Position numbers and translations under genes: made by a program. Below the pieces are notes generated by a model, which saw only the letters and a program-made list of their open reading frames with translations, was not told the DNA's origin and did no database searches. Below are positions 43,012-53,341 of a stretch of 64,000 nucleotides of DNA, piece by piece. How positions within the stretch are numbered: the first letter of the stretch is position 1; each line of letters starts with the position of its first letter. This stretch comes from Deltaproteobacteria bacterium (lineage in GTDB: Bacteria > Myxococcota_A > UBA9160 > SZUA-336), in NCBI GenBank assembly GCA_029261925.1, contig JAJDAJ010000091.1:62001-126000 (forward strand), read 5' to 3'.

Positions 43012-44091
43012 GTGGGGGAGCAAGCGCACCCGCCGGTGCCGGCGGCGTCGGGGAGCTTTCCGCCGGCGGCGGCCTGGTGGAGTGACGCCCGGGGAGAGCT
43101 GATCGCGCTCTCGCCGCGCTGGGAGCAGCTCACCGGACGCAGCGTCGAGAAGGAGTGTGGCGGCGGCTGGCTGGCGCACGTGCCGCCCGACGACGTGCGC
43201 CGCTGGCACGAGGCGCGCAGCGCCGCCGTCCGCGCCGGCCGCGAGCTGCGCGTCGACCTGCGCGTTCGCGCGCGCGAGGGGGGCTGGCTCTGGCTGCGCA
43301 TGCACGGCCTTCCCGAGCAGGACGGTGCGGGAATGCTGACCGGCTTCGTGGGCTCGGCCACCGACGTGAGCGACCTGCGGCGCATGCAGGACGAGCTGAT
43401 CGGCGAGGTCCGGCGCCTCGCGCGCGCGGATCGCGAGCTGGATCAGCTCGTGCACGTCGGCGTTCACGATCTGCAGGCGCCGCTGCGCAACCTCGACTAC
43501 CTGCTCTCGGAGCTGGCCGCGGGCGAGCTCGACCCCGCGGCGGTGAAGCCGCTGAGGCGCCTGACGCGCTCGGCGCTCGACATCGCCGGCAACGTGCTCG
43601 ACTTCGCGCGCGTCGGGCGCCAGGAGCCCAGTGCCGAGCCGGTCGACGCGCGTCGCTCGCTGGACTGGGCGCTCGCGCACCTGGCGCCGGCCATCGAGCG
43701 CGCCCGGGCGTCGGTGGTGATCCGGCCGCTGCCGCGCGTCTATGCCGACCCCATCCACCTGGGCCGGATCTTCCAGAACCTGGTGAGCAACGCGCTGCGC
43801 TACGCCGGCGACGCGCCACCCCACGTGGAGATCTCCGCCTCGCGCGACGCGGACCAGGTGGTCTTTCGCGTCTCCGATCGTGGCGTCGGGGTGCCGCCTG
43901 ACCAGCGCGAGGAGGTCTTCGGCCTGTTCTCGCGCCTGCCCGGCGATCAGGACGTGCCCGGCACCGGCGCGGGCCTGGCGATCTGCCGCAAGCTCGTCGA
44001 GCTGCACGGCGGACGGATCTGGATCGAGCCGACGTCCGGACCCGGTGCGTCGTTCCTGTTCACCCTGCTGGCGATCGACGACGCGAGCTGA
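43012..44091 (+). CDS. PAS domain-containing sensor histidine kinase
   Basis: PAS-like N-terminus, 'LVHVGVHDLQAPLRNLDYLL', 'FQNLVSNALRYAGD', 'GTGAGLAICRKLVELHGGRIW'. Confidence 0.92.
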   Translation: MGEQAHPPVPAASGSFPPAAAWWSDARGELIALSPRWEQLTGRSVEKECGGGWLAHVPPDDVRRWHEARSAAVRAGRELRVDLRVRAREGGWLWLRMHGLPEQDGAGMLTGFVGSATDVSDLRRMQDELIGEVRRLARADRELDQLVHVGVHDLQAPLRNLDYLLSELAAGELDPAAVKPLRRLTRSALDIAGNVLDFARVGRQEPSAEPVDARRSLDWALAHLAPAIERARASVVIRPLPRVYADPIHLGRIFQNLVSNALRYAGDAPPHVEISASRDADQVVFRVSDRGVGVPPDQREEVFGLFSRLPGDQDVPGTGAGLAICRKLVELHGGRIWIEPTSGPGASFLFTLLAIDDAS

Positions 44092-44148: not shown

Positions 44149-44541
44149 CTAGTGGTCGCAGCCGTGCCCGCGGCCATGGCCGCGATGGTGACGCTTGTGC
44201 CGGTAGTGATGCCGGTCGTGGCGGTAGTAATCGCGCTTGTGCCGGTAGTGATGCCGGTCGCCGCGATCGTAGTCATCGTAGTACCGCGCGCCGTGGCGGT
44301 AGTACGTGCGGTGATGGATCGGTCGCTGGTAGCCGTGACCGTATCCGCCGCCGCCGAGGAGCACCTCGGCGAGGATGTGGCGTCCGATCCCGAACGCCTC
44401 GTGCGCCGCCACGCGGCCCAGCTCGTCCTTGAAGCCGTTCTCGAAGTGGTCGCCGCCCGCGCGCGCGGCAGAGGGCGCCACGAGCGCCAGCCCGAGGCCC
44501 GCCGCGGCCACCAGCAGCAGTCCGCGCATCCGGATTCGCAT
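44149..44541 (-). CDS. Exported His/Tyr/Arg-rich low-complexity protein
   Basis: Signal peptide 'MRIRMRGLLLVAAAGLGLALVAPSAARA'; C-terminal half '..RHHYRHKRDYYRHDRHHYRHKRHHRGHGRGHGCDH'. Confidence 0.75.
   Translation of the reverse strand: MRIRMRGLLLVAAAGLGLALVAPSAARAGGDHFENGFKDELGRVAAHEAFGIGRHILAEVLLGGGGYGHGYQRPIHHRTYYRHGARYYDDYDRGDRHHYRHKRDYYRHDRHHYRHKRHHRGHGRGHGCDH
44192..44260. repeat. 27-nt direct repeat in two copies (42-nt period) within the His-rich gene
   Basis: 'cgcttgtgccggtagtgatgccggtcg' at 44192-44218 and 44234-44260. Confidence 0.9.
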
Positions 44542-44636: not shown

Positions 44637-45689
44637 TCAAGGACTTCCGGGGTCTGCTGCGAGCTCTGCCCAGATCCGGGCCGCGGGCTTCGGGCGGCCC
44701 CGGGCGTCGAGCAGGCCGAATCCGGTCTCCGCGGCTCCGAAGTATCCCGTGTGCTCCGGGTCGTCGCGGAGCTGGAACCAGATCGCGCCGAAGACGCCCG
44801 CCGCATGCAGCTCCGGCGCCCGCGCGACCAGGCTCGAGACCGCGTCGAGCTGCTCGGCCTCCCAGCCTCCGTGCGAGGAGATCGCCGCGTAGGCCAGCAG
44901 GACGGGCCGGTCGAACTCCCGCCGCAGGTAGCGCGCGTAGCTCAGGGCTGCGCCCCCCACGTCCAGGTAGCCCCGCGCGCGAGCGTCGCGGTCGCCCCTG
45001 GCGCGCATCTCCTGGAAGGCGATGAAGTCGAGCTTCGGCGCCACGGCGCCCACGGAAAGGCGCAGGTCGCGATCGGGCGAGAAGTCGCCCGCGCACACCC
45101 CGACGCGCGCATTCGGCGCGCGCTCGCGGAAGATGCGCAGCGCCGCCGCGAGCTCGTCGTTGAAGCCGCGCCAGCGCGTGATGGCGGTCTCGCCGGGCGG
45201 CGGGGCGTCGTTGAACTCCGGCGCGAGCACGACCAGCACCTGCGCCGGACCGCGCACCGCGTCGGCCACGCGGCGCAGGTGGCGGTGCCATGCGTCCCGC
45301 TGCGCGCGGACGCGCTGGCGCGAGATGCCGCGGTCGAAGAAGTACTCGACCACGACCGGCACGCTGCCGCTGTGCGCCAGGCGCGTCAGGTCGCGCGCCG
45401 GCACCCAGCTCTCCTTCCAGCCGCGCGGCAGCCAGATCTGCACGAGATCGGTCGGCAGCCCGGCGCGACGCGCCTGATCGGGCAGGAAGACGGGCGGCCG
45501 TCCTGGCTCCCACCACCAGAGCCGGTCGCCCACGCCCGCGAGCAGGCGGCCCGGGGTCGCGAGCTCCGGCGGACGGAACGCGGCGTCGGGGAGCGGTGGG
45601 TCGCCGGAGCACGCGACGAGGAGCAGGACGGCGAGGGCAGTGCCCGTTTGGTGCGCTCGGAGCGCCGCCCTCGACCGCCCTGCCGTCAC
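44637..45689 (-). CDS. Glycoside-hydrolase-like TIM-barrel lipoprotein (possible detached PgaB C-domain analogue)
   Basis: Lipobox-like 'VLLLVACSG'; 'VLVVLAPEFNDAPPPGETAITRWRGFNDELAAALR', 'GVFGAIWFQLRDDPEHTGYFGAAETGFGLLDARGRPKPAARIW'; TGA/GTG overlap with upstream gene. Confidence 0.65.
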   Translation of the reverse strand: MTAGRSRAALRAHQTGTALAVLLLVACSGDPPLPDAAFRPPELATPGRLLAGVGDRLWWWEPGRPPVFLPDQARRAGLPTDLVQIWLPRGWKESWVPARDLTRLAHSGSVPVVVEYFFDRGISRQRVRAQRDAWHRHLRRVADAVRGPAQVLVVLAPEFNDAPPPGETAITRWRGFNDELAAALRIFRERAPNARVGVCAGDFSPDRDLRLSVGAVAPKLDFIAFQEMRARGDRDARARGYLDVGGAALSYARYLRREFDRPVLLAYAAISSHGGWEAEQLDAVSSLVARAPELHAAGVFGAIWFQLRDDPEHTGYFGAAETGFGLLDARGRPKPAARIWAELAADPGSP

Positions 45690-47503
45690 TCGCCGGTCGC
45701 GGCCACCACGCCGCCCGCGTCGTAGTCGATGAAGAAGCCGCGGCTGGCGCCCGCGGGAATCTCGGGCAGCAGCAGGTCCGCGTGCTGCGCTCCCGGCTCG
45801 TGGCGCGACTGCACGCCGCCGCCGAGCCAGCGCGCGGCCAGCTCCTCGCCGATCCGCGTGCTCGACACGCGCAGCGAGCGCGTCGGGGCGTTGGTGTACA
45901 GGCGCAGGACCAGGCCGTGGATCGGTACCTCGCCGGTGTTGGTGATGCGCAGCTGCGCGCGGCTCGGACCCACGTCCTCGATCGTGGCGGCGACCGCGCT
46001 GCGGCGCCTCCACCAGCCGGCCAGCTCGCCCGCGCCCGCGAGCCAGGCGCCCCGCTCGCGCAGCTCGCGCGCGTGCGTGCGGAGCGCGGCGACGCGCGCC
46101 GCGTCACTGATGAACTGGGTGTGGAACGAGAAGTAGTGCAGCCCCCCGATCGCGCGCATGCGCTCCATCTCGCCGCGCAGTACGTCGAGCATCTGCTCCG
46201 CGGTCCGGATGCCGCGGCGCTCGAAGAGATCGTAGTCGTCGAGGATGGGCCTGGGGATCTGCACGAGGGGCCGCGTCGCGCCCTCGATCCGGACCAGCTG
46301 GGGTGCGGCGCTGACCAGCTCGAGATTGCCGAGCTGGTAGTCGAAGCCCAGCTCCGCGAGCGCACGCAGGGTCTCGGGGTCGTAGCTCTCGTACGGAGGG
46401 CGGAAGCCGCGTAGCGGCGGCGCGCCCAGCGCCTCGATCTCGCGGCGCGAGGTTGCCAGCCGCTCGCGCTGCGCATCCCGGTCGACATCCTTGAAGCCGT
46501 CGTGAACGTCGGCGTGACTGCCCACCTCGCCGGCGCTGGTGAGCTTGCGGACCACGCCGGGGTGCTCGCGGGCCAGCGAGCTGACCAGCAGGAAGGTGAC
46601 GGGGAAGGCGTCGGCCAGCGCGGCGTCGGCCACGGGGCCGGCGTTGGCGAAGCCGGTCTCCGTGTCCATCGCCAGCAGCCCCGCGAAGGGCGCGCCGTCG
46701 GGCCAGGCGTGGAGCTCGCCCACCGGCCGCCGCGAGGCCCAGGCCCAGGCGTTCGCGTAGACCCGCGCGAGCCACGCGCTTCCCGGCGAGCCGCTGGCGC
46801 GCACGGGATCGATGCCGATCCAGGCGATGCGCCCGCGGCCGGTCTCGATGCGCAGGGCCGCGGCCGACTGCGGGCCGGAGGGGCGCAGGTCCCAGGACGA
46901 CCAGAACAGCTCCGCCGCCGGATCGTCCACCGCCGGAGAGCGCTCGGCCGGGGCCAGGCCGATGCGCAGGCCCGGGTCGGTGCCGGCGTTCAGCGGGCCG
47001 CGTCGCCCCGCGGCCGCGAACCAGGCGCGGTCGCGCTCCAGGGCCGCGACCTCGCGACCGAGTGCCCGCTCCATCGCCGTGGCCGGACCGCTGCCGTCCC
47101 CCGCGATCCAGCCCGCGAGCAGGACCGAGCCGCCGCGCTGCGCGAACTCCAGCAGCGCGTCGAGCTCCGCGTCGTCGAGGGCGGCCGCATCGGAGACGAC
47201 CGCCAGCCCGGTCCGGCCCTCGAGGGATGCGGCCGGGGTCCGGGCGAGCCGGTCGAGGTCGGTCGGCAGCAGTTCGGCCCAGGCGCTGCGCAGCCGGTCG
47301 CGCTCCCAGGCCGAGCGCTCGATCGCCTGGCCGGGCTCGACCCAGAGCGCACCCACGGGCCCGCCCGCTACCTGGGGCAGCACCGCGAACGGACCGATCA
47401 GGGTGCGCAGCATGTAGATCAGCAGGACGGCGCCGGCGCCGAGGAACACGACCCCCAGCGACATGATCTTGCCGGCGTACCAGCGTCGGGCGGGAAGCTT
47501 CAC
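45686..47503 (-). CDS. Membrane-anchored polysaccharide deacetylase (NodB-like) family protein
   Basis: N-terminal TM; 'LLAMDTETGF', HxxxH 'GEVGSHADVHDG', 'FRPPYESYDPETLRALAELGFDY', 'LHYFSFHTQF'. Confidence 0.85.
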   Translation of the reverse strand: MKLPARRWYAGKIMSLGVVFLGAGAVLLIYMLRTLIGPFAVLPQVAGGPVGALWVEPGQAIERSAWERDRLRSAWAELLPTDLDRLARTPAASLEGRTGLAVVSDAAALDDAELDALLEFAQRGGSVLLAGWIAGDGSGPATAMERALGREVAALERDRAWFAAAGRRGPLNAGTDPGLRIGLAPAERSPAVDDPAAELFWSSWDLRPSGPQSAAALRIETGRGRIAWIGIDPVRASGSPGSAWLARVYANAWAWASRRPVGELHAWPDGAPFAGLLAMDTETGFANAGPVADAALADAFPVTFLLVSSLAREHPGVVRKLTSAGEVGSHADVHDGFKDVDRDAQRERLATSRREIEALGAPPLRGFRPPYESYDPETLRALAELGFDYQLGNLELVSAAPQLVRIEGATRPLVQIPRPILDDYDLFERRGIRTAEQMLDVLRGEMERMRAIGGLHYFSFHTQFISDAARVAALRTHARELRERGAWLAGAGELAGWWRRRSAVAATIEDVGPSRAQLRITNTGEVPIHGLVLRLYTNAPTRSLRVSSTRIGEELAARWLGGGVQSRHEPGAQHADLLLPEIPAGASRGFFIDYDAGGVVAATGE

Positions 47504-47688
47504 GACTCGTCTCCTCCGGAATCCGCCGGACGGGCCCCGTAGCGCTCGAAGTACACCGGTCGCTCCGTGCTGACCTTGGGCTTGCGGCCGTTGCGCACCT
47601 TGAAGGCGAGGTACGAGGCGAGGGCCAGCACGATCGTGACGATCGTCGCGATCAGGATCACCGCCGACAGATAGGGAACCAGGTCCAA
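47500..47688 (-). CDS. 62-aa single-TM membrane protein (PgaD-position small protein)
   Basis: 'MDLVPYLSAVILIATIVTIVLALASYLAFKVRNGRKPKVSTERPVYFERYG'; overlaps deacetylase start. Confidence 0.75.
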   Translation of the reverse strand: MDLVPYLSAVILIATIVTIVLALASYLAFKVRNGRKPKVSTERPVYFERYGARPADSGGDES

Positions 47689-47689
47689 T

Positions 47690-49000
47690 TCAGATCCTCC
47701 CGATCCGGTCGAGCTTTCCCCAGTCCATGTGCAGGTTGAGCATCTCCTCGAACGTGGCGAGCACCTTCGCCACGTCGATCACCAGGGAGAAGAACGCGCG
47801 GTACAGCACCGCGTAGGGCACCAGGCGCAGGCTCTCCTTCTCGAGCACCACGCAGTACAGCGCCGCGGCCAGGTCCAGCACCGTCAGCTGGGCCCACCAG
47901 ATCACCAGCGGCAGGGTCGTCCCGTACAGGAGCGCCACCAGGACGAAGAGCACGTTGGCGAAGACGTTGGTGACCGGCCAGAGGATGCCCTCGAAGATCA
48001 TGTACCAGAGCGAGAAGCTCAGGCTGCAGCTCGTGCGCGGATCGATCAGGCGGATGCGGTGCTTGCGGATCGCCTGCAGGATCCCGCGCGTCCAGCGGTA
48101 GCGCTGCTTGAGCAGGTCGAGCAGCTGCTCGGGTGCCTCGGTGTAGGCGATCGACGCGGGCTCGTAACAGATCTGCCAGCCGTCGGCGAGCAGACGCAGG
48201 GTCAGGTCGCAGTCCTCGGCGAAGGTGTCGGGCTCGTATCCGCCCATGCGCAGCAGGGCCGAGCGGCGGAACATCCCGATCGGGCCCGGAACGATGTTAA
48301 CCACGCGGAAGAACGCCTGCGCGTTGCGGACCATGTTCAGGCCCTCGATGTACTCCAGGGCCTGGAGCGTGCTCCAGACGTTGCCGCGGTTGACCACCTT
48401 GACGTTGCCCGCCACCGCGCCCACGGCCGGGTTGACGAAGTGGCGCACGGCGCGCCGCAGCGTGCCCGGAGCGAGGGCGGAGTCGCCGTCCATGCAGAGC
48501 ACCAGCGAGCCGCGCGCCGCCCGGATGCCGGTATTCAGAGCGTTGGCCTTGCCGCCGTTCTCCTTGTGGATCACGCGGACCTCGACGTCGCCGTGATTGC
48601 CCTCGTAGACGCGGGCGCGCCGGTAGGTGTCGTCACTTGATCCGTCGTCGATCACCAGGATCTCGTAGTTCGGATAGTCGAGCTCGAGCAGGGAGCGGAT
48701 CGAGCCCTCGATCACCGCGCCCTCGTTGTAGGCGGGAACCAGGACGCTCACGAGCGGGCAGCGGAAGCTCTCCTCGGGACCACCGTCGAGGAAGTTCAGG
48801 TAGGAGAACCACAGCAGCGCGAAGTAGCGCAGGATCAGCAGCAGCAGGAATCCGAACAGCCCGATCATCGAGACCTGCATGAAGCCGTCGTGGAGCTGGA
48901 AGTCGGCGTCCAGCACCAGCCGGTAGAGGCCGAGCGACGCGCCGATGATCCCGCTGAGGATCACCGCCACCCCGAGCGTGTAGCGCAGGCGGGGGATCAC
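47690..49000 (-). CDS. Processive family 2 glycosyltransferase (PgaC/HasA/cellulose-synthase-like)
   Basis: 'VSVLVPAYNEGAVIEGSIRSLLELDYPNYEILVIDDGSSDDT', DxD 'CMDGDSAL', 'FAEDCDLTLRL', 'QRYRW', multiple TMs. Confidence 0.93.
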   Translation of the reverse strand: MIPRLRYTLGVAVILSGIIGASLGLYRLVLDADFQLHDGFMQVSMIGLFGFLLLLILRYFALLWFSYLNFLDGGPEESFRCPLVSVLVPAYNEGAVIEGSIRSLLELDYPNYEILVIDDGSSDDTYRRARVYEGNHGDVEVRVIHKENGGKANALNTGIRAARGSLVLCMDGDSALAPGTLRRAVRHFVNPAVGAVAGNVKVVNRGNVWSTLQALEYIEGLNMVRNAQAFFRVVNIVPGPIGMFRRSALLRMGGYEPDTFAEDCDLTLRLLADGWQICYEPASIAYTEAPEQLLDLLKQRYRWTRGILQAIRKHRIRLIDPRTSCSLSFSLWYMIFEGILWPVTNVFANVLFVLVALLYGTTLPLVIWWAQLTVLDLAAALYCVVLEKESLRLVPYAVLYRAFFSLVIDVAKVLATFEEMLNLHMDWGKLDRIGRI

Positions 49001-50422
49001 TCAGAACCTCCGCTCGACGAGAAGGCGCGCCCTGCGTCCGCGGTACGGGTTGTCGCGGCGCGAGTACGCGAACTCTCCGCCGAGCTCGACCCGCCACTCG
49101 CGGCGCTCCCAGCCGAGCTTCATGCGGCCGAGCCCGACCATTCCCGACTCGGTGGACAGGCGCGTGTCGGTCGAGCCCCAGCCCAGGCTCGCGCCGTAGT
49201 CCAGGTGCAGGTCGTGCCCGAGCTCGAGTGCGTGCTCGCCCAGGAGGCCGACTCCCAGGTCGCGATCGGGGTCGTAGTAGAGCTCCGAGGGGTCCGCGTA
49301 GCGGGCGAGGCTGGCGTTCAGGCTGAGCTTGAGGTCGGGGTTCCGCTCCGGGACGAAGGTCAGCGAGCCGAGCACCTCGTCGTGCCGGTTGCCGTCGCTG
49401 AGGTCGAGCACGCGCAGGCGGCCCCAGAACGACCAGCGCGGGGCGAGCGCCTTCCAGGTCGTGAGCGCGTACGCGGTCGCGTCGACGTCGTGCTGCAGGG
49501 CCTCGAACGACTGGCTGTAGTCCAGGTGGCTGCGCTGCTCGATGCCGCCGGTGAGCAGGAAGGCCTCGGTCTGGTACTCGAGGCGCGCCGCCCCGTCGAG
49601 CGTGTCGTCCGCGCGACGCCACGCGCGCGCCCCGAGCTCGACGACGGTCTTGAAGCGCGGCCCCAGGCGACGGTCGAGCCAGAGACGCAGCTCGGAGGCG
49701 GAGTCGTCGTCGTGGCGGAGGCGAACGGGCAGCGCGACCTCGTCCTGGTCGTGCGCGACCCGGATGGTGCCCGCGGAGACGCGCAGCCGGGTCCCCAGAT
49801 CCAGGTAGGACTCGCCCTCGAGCAGCGCGTCGGTGCGCGAGAAGTCTCCGCCGTCCCAGAAGCTGTCCACGCGGAGCCGCGCGCGGGGCCGGTACGCGGC
49901 GCGGAGGTCGCGCCACTCGTCGCGCGCCTCGGCGTCGTCCTGCTCCTCGAGCGCGAGACGGTACAGGCGATCGGCCTCCTGGAGCTCCCCGGCCCAGCGC
50001 TCCGTGCGCGCCAGGCCGCGAAGCGCGCGCGCGTTCGCGGGATCGCGCTCGAGCACCCCGGAGAACCCGGCGCGGGCCCGGGCGTACTGCCCGCGCCAGG
50101 AGTGCACCTCGGCGCGCTCGACGCGGGCCTCGAGGTCGTCGGGATCGGCGTCGATCAGCCGGTCGTAGTGGTCGAGGGCGCGGTCATGCTCGCCGCGCCA
50201 GCTCAGCACGCGCGCCAGGTGCAGCCGCGCCCGACGTTCGCCCGGTGCGTCGGCCAGCACTGCCTCCAGCAGCTCGATCGCCTCGTCGTAGGTGGCCTCC
50301 GAGGCCAGTCGCTCGAGCGCCGCGTCCAGTCGCGGGTCGGCCGGAGGCTCCGCGGCAGCGGCCGGCGCGATCAGCAGGACGAGCAGCGCCGCGAGGCGCG
50401 CGATCCGATCGACGGACATCAT
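49001..50422 (-). CDS. TPR plus outer-membrane beta-barrel exopolysaccharide export protein (PgaA-like architecture)
   Basis: Signal peptide, TPR-like helices ('ALDHYDRLIDADPDDLEARVERAEVHSWRGQYARARAGFSGVLERDPANARAL'), alternating beta strands, C-terminal Phe. Confidence 0.78.
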   Translation of the reverse strand: MMSVDRIARLAALLVLLIAPAAAAEPPADPRLDAALERLASEATYDEAIELLEAVLADAPGERRARLHLARVLSWRGEHDRALDHYDRLIDADPDDLEARVERAEVHSWRGQYARARAGFSGVLERDPANARALRGLARTERWAGELQEADRLYRLALEEQDDAEARDEWRDLRAAYRPRARLRVDSFWDGGDFSRTDALLEGESYLDLGTRLRVSAGTIRVAHDQDEVALPVRLRHDDDSASELRLWLDRRLGPRFKTVVELGARAWRRADDTLDGAARLEYQTEAFLLTGGIEQRSHLDYSQSFEALQHDVDATAYALTTWKALAPRWSFWGRLRVLDLSDGNRHDEVLGSLTFVPERNPDLKLSLNASLARYADPSELYYDPDRDLGVGLLGEHALELGHDLHLDYGASLGWGSTDTRLSTESGMVGLGRMKLGWERREWRVELGGEFAYSRRDNPYRGRRARLLVERRF

Positions 50423-51969
50423 CTGGGTCTCCCCGTATCGCCGCCGAGCGGCCCGAACATCCAGTCCATCTCGAGCAGCTTCTCCTCGATCGAGACCAGC
50501 ACGCGCTCGAGGACCCGCTCCTCGAGCGCCTCCTTCGCGCTCGCGCGCGCGATCATCCGGGTCAGCACCGCGTCGGCCTGCTGGGGCTCCGCCGCGATCA
50601 GCAGCATCGCCAGGCTGGTCTCGTCGATGCGCAGCACCGCGTCCTCGGAGCGCAGCGTCTCCTGGGCCGCCGCGATCAGCAGGTCGAGCGCGTCCTCGTC
50701 CTCGCAGCGCACCCGGGCCAGCGTGCACGTGAGCTCGTAGGCGCTCCCGAACTCGACCGACGTCTCGAGCCGCCGCTGGAACTCCTCGAGATCGACCTCG
50801 CGGCTCGGGGACGAGGCGAGCTGGATCACGTCGGGGTCCTCGCCCGCGTCCTCGCGCAGCGTCGGCGGCAGCTGGATCAGCAGGTCGACCTTGCGCCTGA
50901 GCTCGAGGCGAGACGGGGGCTTGGAGATCACGTCGGCGGCGCCCAGGATCAGCGCGCGAACGCGATTGGCCGAGCGCGCCATGACCCGCGACACCGTCAG
51001 GATCGGCACCTGGACCGGCGCCTTGCGCAGCGCGACCAGCAGGTCGAAGCCCGAGACGTCGGGCACGATCGGATCGATCACGATCATGTCCGGCTGCTCG
51101 GAGAGCAGCGCGGAGAGCGCCGCGAAGCCGCTGCCGGCCTGGATGATCTCGTAGCTCTCCGCGATCCAGCCGGCGATCTGCTCGCGGTCGTCCCGATCCG
51201 CGTCCACGACCAGCACGCGTCGCCGCGCCTTGGTCGACGCCGGGGGCGGCGCCCGCCGTGGCGAGGGACGCTGCTCGAGCTCGGCGGCGGTCTCCTCGAC
51301 CGGTGCGCGCATCAGCACGCCGCCGGGCTGGATCGAGAAGCCCAGCTTCTCGGTGGTGGCTGCGCCGAAGCGCGACTTCTGCACCTCGAGGTAGCGGTGC
51401 CCGCGATCGTTGCGGCCCAGGTAGACCAGGGCCCCGCAGAGATCCGAGAGCGCGCGCGCCAGGGTCGGCTGGCTCTCGAGCACGCTGCTCTCGGCCGTCA
51501 CCACGATCTGCTGCTGGCCGTCCTCGCCCTCGAAGAGCGTCGAGAGCGCGATGCGCAGCGGCTGCTCGTCGAGGAACTCGGCCACCAGGGCATTGAGCGG
51601 ATCGAAGATCACCAGCGCGGCGTGCGGCGCCTGCTCGCGCAGGGCCTCGACGAAGCTCAGCGCGCCGTGCGAACGCAGTGAGACGCTGGCATCCGGCGTG
51701 AGCCGCAGCAGCACGAGCCGCTCGTCGTCGATCGCGTCCTGGAGATCGAGCTCGAGCGACTCCGCCTGACGCAGCAGCACGGCCGGCGGCTCGGTGGTCA
51801 CGAAGACCACGCGCTCGCCGCGCGAGACGGCCGCGTGTGCGAGCTGGACGGCCAGCACGGTGCGCCCACAGCCCATCGGGCCGCAGAGCACGAGCGGCAT
51901 GCCGAGCTCCATCTGGCCCAGCGCGGTATCGAGGATCGGGACTCCGGTCACTCCGGACCCCTCCCCCAT
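50419..51969 (-). CDS. KaiC-like ATPase - receiver (REC) - degenerate GGDEF-like fusion protein
   Basis: 'MPLVLCGPMGCGRTVLAVQLA', 'ALVIFDPLNAL', REC 'RRVLVVDADRDDREQI..MIVIDPIVPDVSGFDLL..ADVISKPPS', C-terminal 'ETLRSEDAVLRIDETSLAMLLIAAEPQQADAVLTRMI'. Confidence 0.8.
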   Translation of the reverse strand: MGEGSGVTGVPILDTALGQMELGMPLVLCGPMGCGRTVLAVQLAHAAVSRGERVVFVTTEPPAVLLRQAESLELDLQDAIDDERLVLLRLTPDASVSLRSHGALSFVEALREQAPHAALVIFDPLNALVAEFLDEQPLRIALSTLFEGEDGQQQIVVTAESSVLESQPTLARALSDLCGALVYLGRNDRGHRYLEVQKSRFGAATTEKLGFSIQPGGVLMRAPVEETAAELEQRPSPRRAPPPASTKARRRVLVVDADRDDREQIAGWIAESYEIIQAGSGFAALSALLSEQPDMIVIDPIVPDVSGFDLLVALRKAPVQVPILTVSRVMARSANRVRALILGAADVISKPPSRLELRRKVDLLIQLPPTLREDAGEDPDVIQLASSPSREVDLEEFQRRLETSVEFGSAYELTCTLARVRCEDEDALDLLIAAAQETLRSEDAVLRIDETSLAMLLIAAEPQQADAVLTRMIARASAKEALEERVLERVLVSIEEKLLEMDWMFGPLGGDTGRPR

Positions 51970-52297: not shown

Positions 52298-53341
52298 ATG
52301 AAGGAGCGCACCATGATCTTCCCCGACGATCTCGCCATCGACCTGGGCTCGACGCGCGCGCGCATGCACTGCGCGCGGCGCGGTGCCCTGCTCGACGTTC
52401 CCTCGGTCGTGGCGCTCGACCGCCTGACGCGGGAGCCGCTGGCCGTGGGAGACGCCGCCTTCGAGCGCGTGGGCCGCGTCGCCGATCACATCGAGCTGGT
52501 GTGGCCGGTGCGGGCAGGGCGCGTGGCGGACTTCGACACCGCCGAGGTTCTGCTCCGCTGCATGCTGCGCGCCGCGCGCAATCGCCTGGCCGTGACGCGG
52601 CCGCGGGTCGTGATGACCATGCCGGCGGAGCTCACGCCGCTGGAGAAGCGGGCGCTGCGCGAGGCCGCTCTCACGGCCGGTGCCGGCGAGGTCTTCCTGG
52701 TCGCCGCGCCGGTCGCCGCCGCCCTGGGCGCCGCGGCCCAGGCGCAGCGCGCCGCCGGACACGTGGTGCTGGACGTCGGGGCTGGCACGACCGAGCTCGC
52801 GATCCTCGGGCTCAGCGGCGCCGTCTACCAGCGCAGCGTTCCCCTCGGGGGCGGCCTGCTCGACGATGCTCTGGCGGAGCACCTGCGCAGTGCCCACGAC
52901 CTGATCGTCGGCGCGCACACGCTCGAGCGGGTCAAGTGCGCGCTGGTGCCCGGCGGACACGTGGTCGAGGTGCGGGGGCACGACCGCAACGAGGGCAGCC
53001 CGCGCTCGGTGGAGATCGCGGCCGCGGAGCTGCGCGAGTCGCTGGCGGCGCCGATCGAGCTGCTCGTCGGGGCGATCCGCTCGCTGATCGTCGAGGCGCC
53101 GCCCGAGCTCTGCGCGGAGGCGGCGAGCCACCGCGTGCTGCTCGCCGGTGGCGGTGGCCTGGTCGACGGCTTCGCCGGGCGGCTCGAGAAGTCGGTCTTC
53201 CTGCCGGTCGAGTGCCTGGCCGATCCGTGTCAGGTCGTGGTGCGCGGCTGCGCCGTTTGCCTGGAGGATCTCGACGCGCTCAGGGACCTGGTCCTGGAGC
53301 GCCCGCGCCCCGTCGGCGAGCTGCAGGCCGCGCTGATCTGA
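52298..53341 (+). CDS. MreB-like actin family protein (orphan paralog)
   Basis: 'DLAIDLGSTRARMHCARRGALLDVPSVVALD', 'RVADFDTAEVLLRCML', 'VVLDVGAGTTELAILGLSG', 'VLLAGGGGLVDGF'; start may be ATG 52313. Confidence 0.85.
   Translation: MKERTMIFPDDLAIDLGSTRARMHCARRGALLDVPSVVALDRLTREPLAVGDAAFERVGRVADHIELVWPVRAGRVADFDTAEVLLRCMLRAARNRLAVTRPRVVMTMPAELTPLEKRALREAALTAGAGEVFLVAAPVAAALGAAAQAQRAAGHVVLDVGAGTTELAILGLSGAVYQRSVPLGGGLLDDALAEHLRSAHDLIVGAHTLERVKCALVPGGHVVEVRGHDRNEGSPRSVEIAAAELRESLAAPIELLVGAIRSLIVEAPPELCAEAASHRVLLAGGGGLVDGFAGRLEKSVFLPVECLADPCQVVVRGCAVCLEDLDALRDLVLERPRPVGELQAALI

Follow-up and report, generated by a model that had tools for sequence, protein, structure and literature searches.

A predicted exopolysaccharide operon with a putative BcsE-family regulator in Myxococcota and some Gammaproteobacteria

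Gene content and conservation of the operon

Does a run of six genes that resembles a shuffled pga operon encode a divergent Pga machinery, or a system of its own? The genes lie at 44637-51969 in the window, a stretch of 64,000 nucleotides of contig JAJDAJ010000091.1 from a Deltaproteobacteria bacterium (Myxococcota_A), whose genome (G000) comprises 5.5 Mb in 111 contigs. A preliminary description took them for a rearranged Pga-type operon in which the two functions of PgaB are carried by separate proteins. It reported six co-directional, tightly coupled genes, and this was borne out. All six ORFs are on the minus strand; they overlap by 4 nt at 50419/50422, 47500/47503 and 45686/45689, abut at 49000/49001 and leave a single base at 47688/47690. 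GGAG or GGAGG runs resembling Shine-Dalgarno sequences precede the starts of the outer-membrane protein (OMP), GT2, 62-aa protein and CE4 deacetylase genes; a clear run of this kind was looked for at the starts of the KaiC regulator and glycosidase (GH) genes and not found. The domains above their Pfam cut-offs are KaiC, REC, TPR, GT2 and polysaccharide deacetylase.

Three neighbouring genes were also inspected. Immediately downstream, 44149-44541 (minus strand) encodes a secreted-looking protein of 130 aa with a repetitive His/Arg/Tyr/Asp-rich C-terminus and no Pfam match. Near the 3' end of the operon, on the opposite strand, a sensor kinase with PAS and HATPase domains (43012-44091, plus strand) is a possible, unproven phosphodonor for the receiver domain of the regulator; it is absent from the relatives' neighbourhoods that we examined. 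An MreB-like actin homologue (52298-53341, plus strand; PF06723, 267 bits) is divergent from the regulator gene.

The gene-neighbourhood search that had been proposed as a check recovered the order regulator-OMP-GT2-small TM protein-deacetylase-glycosidase in f42, a different family from this phylum (L061, L062 and L068, the last with its regulator and glycosidase genes truncated by contig ends), and in two gammaproteobacteria, a Cellvibrionales MAG (L034, GC 0.49) and L172 (GC 0.43). The operon genes are also present in relatives of the same class (L025, L031, L021, L035, L133, L134, and L023 with L024, a pair of copies from a single genome), where the glycosidase gene often sits beside the operon but in a different orientation or position. 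In families f19 and f27 the first five genes occur without a match to the glycosidase, and a search for plasmid-borne copies of the glycosidase gene found none. Since the order recurs in another family and in such distant genomes, it must reflect more than chance, and we regard the locus as a conserved system and not as a scrambled pga operon. To call it "rearranged" is therefore misleading, as this is the order that the system normally has. One variant is a tandem pair of KaiC-type regulators upstream of the OMP gene (L133 3598-6966, minus strand, genome G024).

Synthase and export porin

The third gene (47690..49000, minus strand) encodes a processive GT2 synthase of 436 aa. Its DxD, ED and QxxRW motifs had been described as intact, and all of them were found (DDGSSDDT at 118, CMDGDS at 169, AED at 261-263, QRYRW at 299-303). 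The best named NCBIfam model is PgaC_IcaA (TIGR03937), with 208 bits against a cut-off of 422, and hhalign aligns the enzyme with PgaC at E 9e-37. It is the only strong PgaC-like synthase of G000, the next one scoring 68 bits. In a tree of 46 GT2s, however, the enzymes of this system form their own clade (99/98), while PgaC and an IcaA-like sequence form a separate one (100/97), so the equation of this GT2 with PgaC was not upheld. PgaC exceeded its curated cut-off in none of the 331 genomes of the phylum, and in one control genome.

Next to the system clade, and nearer to it than PgaC (branch 96/98, in a midpoint-rooted tree with long NodC and BcsA branches), is a group with GH18-CE4-GT2 synthases from Bacteroidota, Deinococcota, Alphaproteobacteria and Myxococcota. 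Such three-domain fusions join synthase, deacetylase and glycosidase; among the sequences here, a single member, with two domains, carries an annotation of this kind. They differ from our system in being single polypeptides and a separate clade, and neither a BcsE-type sensor nor a TPR porin is annotated beside those examined. NodC adjoins the system clade, but we did not use this position because its branch is long (length 5) and its support weak (88/77). Other Myxococcota families (L118-L130) have long GT2 fusions that group with the GH18-CE4-GT2 synthases, several in frames of >1,100 aa.

The second gene (49001..50422, minus strand) encodes the putative export porin, a protein of 473 aa with a signal peptide, a TPR region (~40-175) and a predicted beta-barrel (~178-473). 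Several TPR models are above their Pfam cut-offs. The best NCBIfam match is PgaA, within the TPR part (53.6 bits against a cut-off of 366.7). PgaA combines TPRs with a 16-strand barrel, and the barrel part here, ~296 aa, compares with 297 aa in E. coli PgaA. The best 60 matches listed for the OMP profile against solved structures are all helical-repeat proteins, TPR or similar; the barrel assignment thus rests on length, amphipathic strands and the C-terminal Phe. Judged by these features and the TPR models, the protein does look like the TPR plus beta-barrel OMP ending in Phe that had been proposed.

Deacetylase and glycosidase-like lipoprotein

The fifth gene (45686..47503, minus strand) encodes the membrane-anchored NodB-type deacetylase of the preliminary description, and this identification stands. 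The protein, 605 aa long, matches PF01522 with 45 bits, above the cut-off, and has intact CE4 motifs (D280-x-E282, H330xxxH334, R368PPYE, H461). In the AlphaFold2 model (mean pLDDT 87), a TM helix (3-35) is followed by a Rossmann-like domain (51-265), the CE4 barrel (274-500) and a beta-sandwich (503-597). By fold it resembles CE4 enzymes (3rxz, TM 0.73 by target) and, in matches that span more than one domain, PelA (9cgy) and the human heparan sulfate N-deacetylase NDST1; PgaB is not among the best 50 matches. With the NodB fold and the catalytic motifs, the protein is a member of CE4. We also considered an assignment to CE18, the family of Agd3. Agd3 has the same three-domain plan, but with >120 residues between motifs 1 and 2 (PMC7229062); we rejected this assignment, as the distance from D280 to H330 is 50 residues and CE4-like. 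A Rossmann/amidotransferase-like domain precedes the deacetylase here as in Agd3, PelA and NDST, and Agd3 also has the beta-sandwich behind it. What separates our protein from these three is its CE4 identity by Pfam cut-off and motif spacing, its TM anchor and its association with a GT2.

The members with an intact domain, those of the window, L034, L061, L068 and L172, all share the variant form D-x-E of motif 1. Elsewhere the fused CE4 domain has lost its metal histidines (L021, L022, L031, L062, L138, L140) or its core (L023, L024, L025, L035, L134). Of the 12 genomes whose fused CE4 is broken, 8 encode a stand-alone deacetylase with another type of N-domain; none of the 4 in which it is intact does so (Fisher two-sided p 0.077, with small numbers and genomes counted without regard to kinship). 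This weak association suggests that deacetylation is kept by switching carriers. The window's family also has a paralogue of the three-domain protein, with its CE4 decayed, in another conserved neighbourhood (G000:C39:75978-77219; L026, L028, L030). From our impression of the sequences, its neighbours are presumably a probable M3-type peptidase and electron-transfer-flavoprotein-like genes.

The last gene (44637..45689, minus strand) encodes a glycosidase-like protein of 350 aa with the lipobox LLVAC. It has no Pfam match above cut-off and no convincing sequence match in the PDB. The fold check that had been suggested for it favours the earlier reading as a glycosidase-like lipoprotein, since the AlphaFold2 model (mean pLDDT 86) predicts eight beta-strands in TIM-barrel order, a (beta/alpha)8 barrel. 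The best solved fold relatives are GH53, GH39 (PslG), GH10 and GH5 enzymes. PgaB is absent from the best 50 fold matches and hhalign to PgaB was negative; nor does the family match solved GH114 or GH166 structures in sequence. Conserved residues are E158, N160, Q226, D309 and D310. All rows of a twelve-row alignment have E158 at the end of beta-4, and all but one (L061, with Ala) have E227 at the end of beta-6. Clan GH-A enzymes have their acids at beta-4 and beta-7. Although PslG and other members of this clan are the best structural matches, sequence identity to them is 13-18%, and the barrel, with E158 at beta-4, has no acid at the end of beta-7. The lipoprotein may belong to a glycosidase family that has yet to be named, or its barrel may serve to bind the polymer; of the two, we consider a hydrolase more likely. 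A distant relative of the barrel (24%) is part of a 780-aa protein in a Campylobacteraceae MAG (L040 8732-11074, plus strand), followed by a REC-like protein and with no synthase nearby.

The regulator and its kinship with BcsE

The first gene (50419..51969, minus strand) encodes a protein of 516 aa that had been described as a KaiC-REC regulator. The KaiC ATPase (residues 8-219; PF06745, 52 bits) and the receiver (252-361, with D299 and K350; PF00072, 56 bits) are indeed both above cut-off, but a third domain, a degenerate GGDEF at ~390-480, had been missed. Of all the components, it is this regulator that says most about the nature of the system. Pfam detects GGDEF above cut-off in L061; the matches in L021, L023, L025 and L031 are weak or PelD-like, with weak PelD_GGDEF matches in L023 and L025. 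There are 13 GGDEF matches in G000. The Walker A motif of the window's protein is GPMGCGRT, with Arg replacing Lys, and it is lost in four orthologues.

The same order, NTPase*-REC*-GGDEF*, is found in BcsE, which binds c-di-GMP through an RxxD motif (PMC7439463, PMC11470070). An hhalign comparison between a profile of 13 regulator orthologues and one of nine BcsE sequences gave a score of 79.9 (E 2.7e-9) over 426 collinear columns. The controls were negative: 60 column shuffles reached at most 22.4, the reversed profile 16.4 and a KaiC-only profile 16.9. The match held without the gammaproteobacterial member (E 8e-9) and with only families from outside the window's class (E 7.5e-10), and the class alone gave E 5e-5. 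With plain HMMER, the profile reached E 8.5e-6 and 3.2e-4 for the best two BcsE sequences, and E. coli BcsE was not significant. As few BcsE sequences are found well in this way, the relation must be remote. The Pfam family of BcsE, PF10995, is absent among the regulator's matches at E<=1, so we do not file the protein as a BcsE orthologue; by profile comparison, it is a remote homologue within the BcsE family, collinear over all three domains.

Across 14 orthologues, no columns of the last domain other than R440, D443 and R471 are invariant. These three form a predicted c-di-GMP I-site, with the RxxD (R440-S-E-D443) encoded at 50641..50652 and the third ligand, R471, at 50557-50559, both on the minus strand. 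Their spacing, 3 and 31, is the same as that of R359, D362 and R390 in the I-site of PleD (PMC7288161), and in all 14 orthologues the predicted RxxD is in register with R415TGD of E. coli BcsE. For L172 this rests on the alignment, because its regulator alone matches neither the orthologue family nor BcsE. The GGDEF active-site motif has been lost (DETSL in the window) and is found in no aligned orthologue. The second RxxD of BcsE, on the REC side, reads RSAN in the window and is RxxD in L023, L025, L034, L138 and L140.

The fourth gene (47500..47688, minus strand) was thought to encode a counterpart of PgaD. It does encode a small membrane protein, of 62 aa, but PgaD is a two-TM subunit; with its single TM segment, no PgaD match at E<=1 in Pfam or NCBIfam and a negative hhalign comparison, we rejected that identification. 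Besides the TM segment it has a basic juxtamembrane region and a conserved, predicted cytoplasmic tail, RPVYFERY, with conserved P44 and F47; the tail of BcsF reads KPRYVKP. BcsF (63 aa, one TM helix) recruits BcsE to the membrane, and its tail adds a strand to the N-domain of BcsE (PMC7439463, PMC11470070). Sequence homology with BcsF was rejected (E 0.18), and we retain BcsF only as an analogy, according to which the 62-aa protein possibly docks the BcsE-type sensor at the synthase. At L172 (10169-10388, plus strand), the small TM frame has 43 aa only, with tail-like sequence in another frame, perhaps through a sequencing frameshift.

The resemblance to the BcsE/BcsF pair of E. coli type II cellulose thus includes the domain order, the RxxD in register, the collinear profile match and, encoded in the same operon, a single-TM partner of ~62 aa whose tail is of the Pro-x-aromatic type. 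There are clear differences as well. In cellulose synthesis, BcsE acts on BcsA through BcsR and BcsQ. The synthase here is not BcsA, and the operon lacks BcsB, Q, R and G; neither bcsQ nor bcsA was found in it. The regulator partly keeps the Walker A of KaiC and the REC phosphoacceptor.

Alternative interpretations

A divergent Pga operon, with a GT2 that makes beta-1,6-GlcNAc and a deacetylase and glycosidase that are the two halves of PgaB, would share much of this inventory: one operon with a TPR-barrel porin, a GT2, a small membrane protein and predicted deacetylase and glycosidase-like activities, as in PgaABCD and IcaADBC. Both the synthase and the OMP, in its TPR part, find their best NCBIfam matches among Pga models, and the synthase aligns well with PgaC. 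Yet none of the proteins attains the cut-off of PgaA, PgaB, PgaC or PgaD, and the GT2 falls into another clade. PgaB is a CE4 deacetylase fused to GH153 (PF14883). The glycosidase-like, deacetylase and 62-aa proteins have no match to PgaB, GH153 or PgaD at E<=1, their hhalign comparisons with PgaB and PgaD were negative, and neither the CE4 model nor the GH model has PgaB among its best 50 fold matches. A BcsE-type sensor also takes the place of c-di-GMP binding by PgaC/D. The core of the preliminary description, a Pga system whose PgaB is divided between two proteins, is hence improbable. Its broader frame remains sound: the locus is of the synthase-dependent exopolysaccharide type and combines a GT2 and a small membrane protein with a deacetylase, a glycosidase-like protein and a TPR-barrel for export.

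We give just as little credence to a cationic, GalNAc-rich polymer of the Pel or galactosaminogalactan type, in which the deacetylase would correspond to PelA or Agd3 and the glycosidase to the hydrolase domain of PelA. The domain order shared with Agd3 (PMC7229062) and the multi-domain fold matches to PelA (9cgy) and NDST1 would fit it, but the spacing of the CE4 motifs and the lack of a GH114 or GH166 sequence match do not. The synthase, too, is a membrane GT2, whereas Agd3-type operons all have a cytosolic GT, as does Pel with PelF. A further possibility concerns the regulator alone, which might be an ordinary KaiC/REC signalling protein unlinked to c-di-GMP, its GGDEF-like tail a structural relic. 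Its N-domain does match true KaiC strongly (hhalign E 2.8e-16), the GGDEF motif is absent and the phosphoacceptor Asp is present in the window. On the other hand, the I-site triad is all that the tail conserves without exception, even as residues of Walker A and REC erode; the collinearity with BcsE extends over the full length, and in more than one phylum the gene has remained part of the operon. We regard this possibility as unlikely, if slightly less so than the other two.

Proposed mechanism and significance

Our preferred interpretation, which we consider probable, is a c-di-GMP-gated, synthase-dependent amino-sugar exopolysaccharide system with a BcsE-family sensor that is possibly docked by the 62-aa protein. 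The inner-membrane GT2 would polymerise and extrude a beta-linked N-acetylhexosamine polymer, most likely of GlcNAc, and the anchored CE4 protein would deacetylate it in part in the periplasm, so that the predicted product is a partly deacetylated N-acetylhexosamine chain. The TIM-barrel lipoprotein may trim or release chains, and the TPR-barrel porin would export the polymer. Gating would proceed through the BcsE-family sensor and not through PgaD or PilZ: c-di-GMP would bind the KaiC-REC-GGDEF* protein at the predicted site R440/D443/R471, and the 62-aa protein would hold this regulator at the GT2 much as BcsF docks BcsE. Phosphorylation of REC and, where Walker A survives, ATP may provide extra inputs.

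The individual parts are of known kinds. In the literature that we searched, we found no description of their combination, a BcsE-family sensor with a synthase other than BcsA. The main text of a survey of operons of this type from 2020 briefly mentions pga-like loci of environmental origin in which pgaC has moved and neither pgaB nor pgaD is detectable (PMC7112194); these may represent the same system. We see about an even chance that the operon stands for a new class of synthase-dependent exopolysaccharide system, with members in Myxococcota and in some Gammaproteobacteria. In such a class, a non-cellulose GT2 would be driven by a c-di-GMP sensor module like BcsE/BcsF, and the KaiC-REC-GGDEF* regulator would connect KaiC-type ATPases with the degenerate cellulose regulator BcsE in evolution.

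In the literature consulted, BcsE is a component of cellulose systems, and its N-domain is merely modelled on KaiC. A family that keeps KaiC, REC and the I-site in the operon of another polymer would, if our interpretation is true, give BcsE an origin, and the sensor module would be portable between synthases. The deacetylase shows how such a component can change among fused, decayed and stand-alone forms. For uncultured Myxococcota, with PgaC over its cut-off in 0 of 331 genomes, the regulator is a candidate point of c-di-GMP control over exopolysaccharide.
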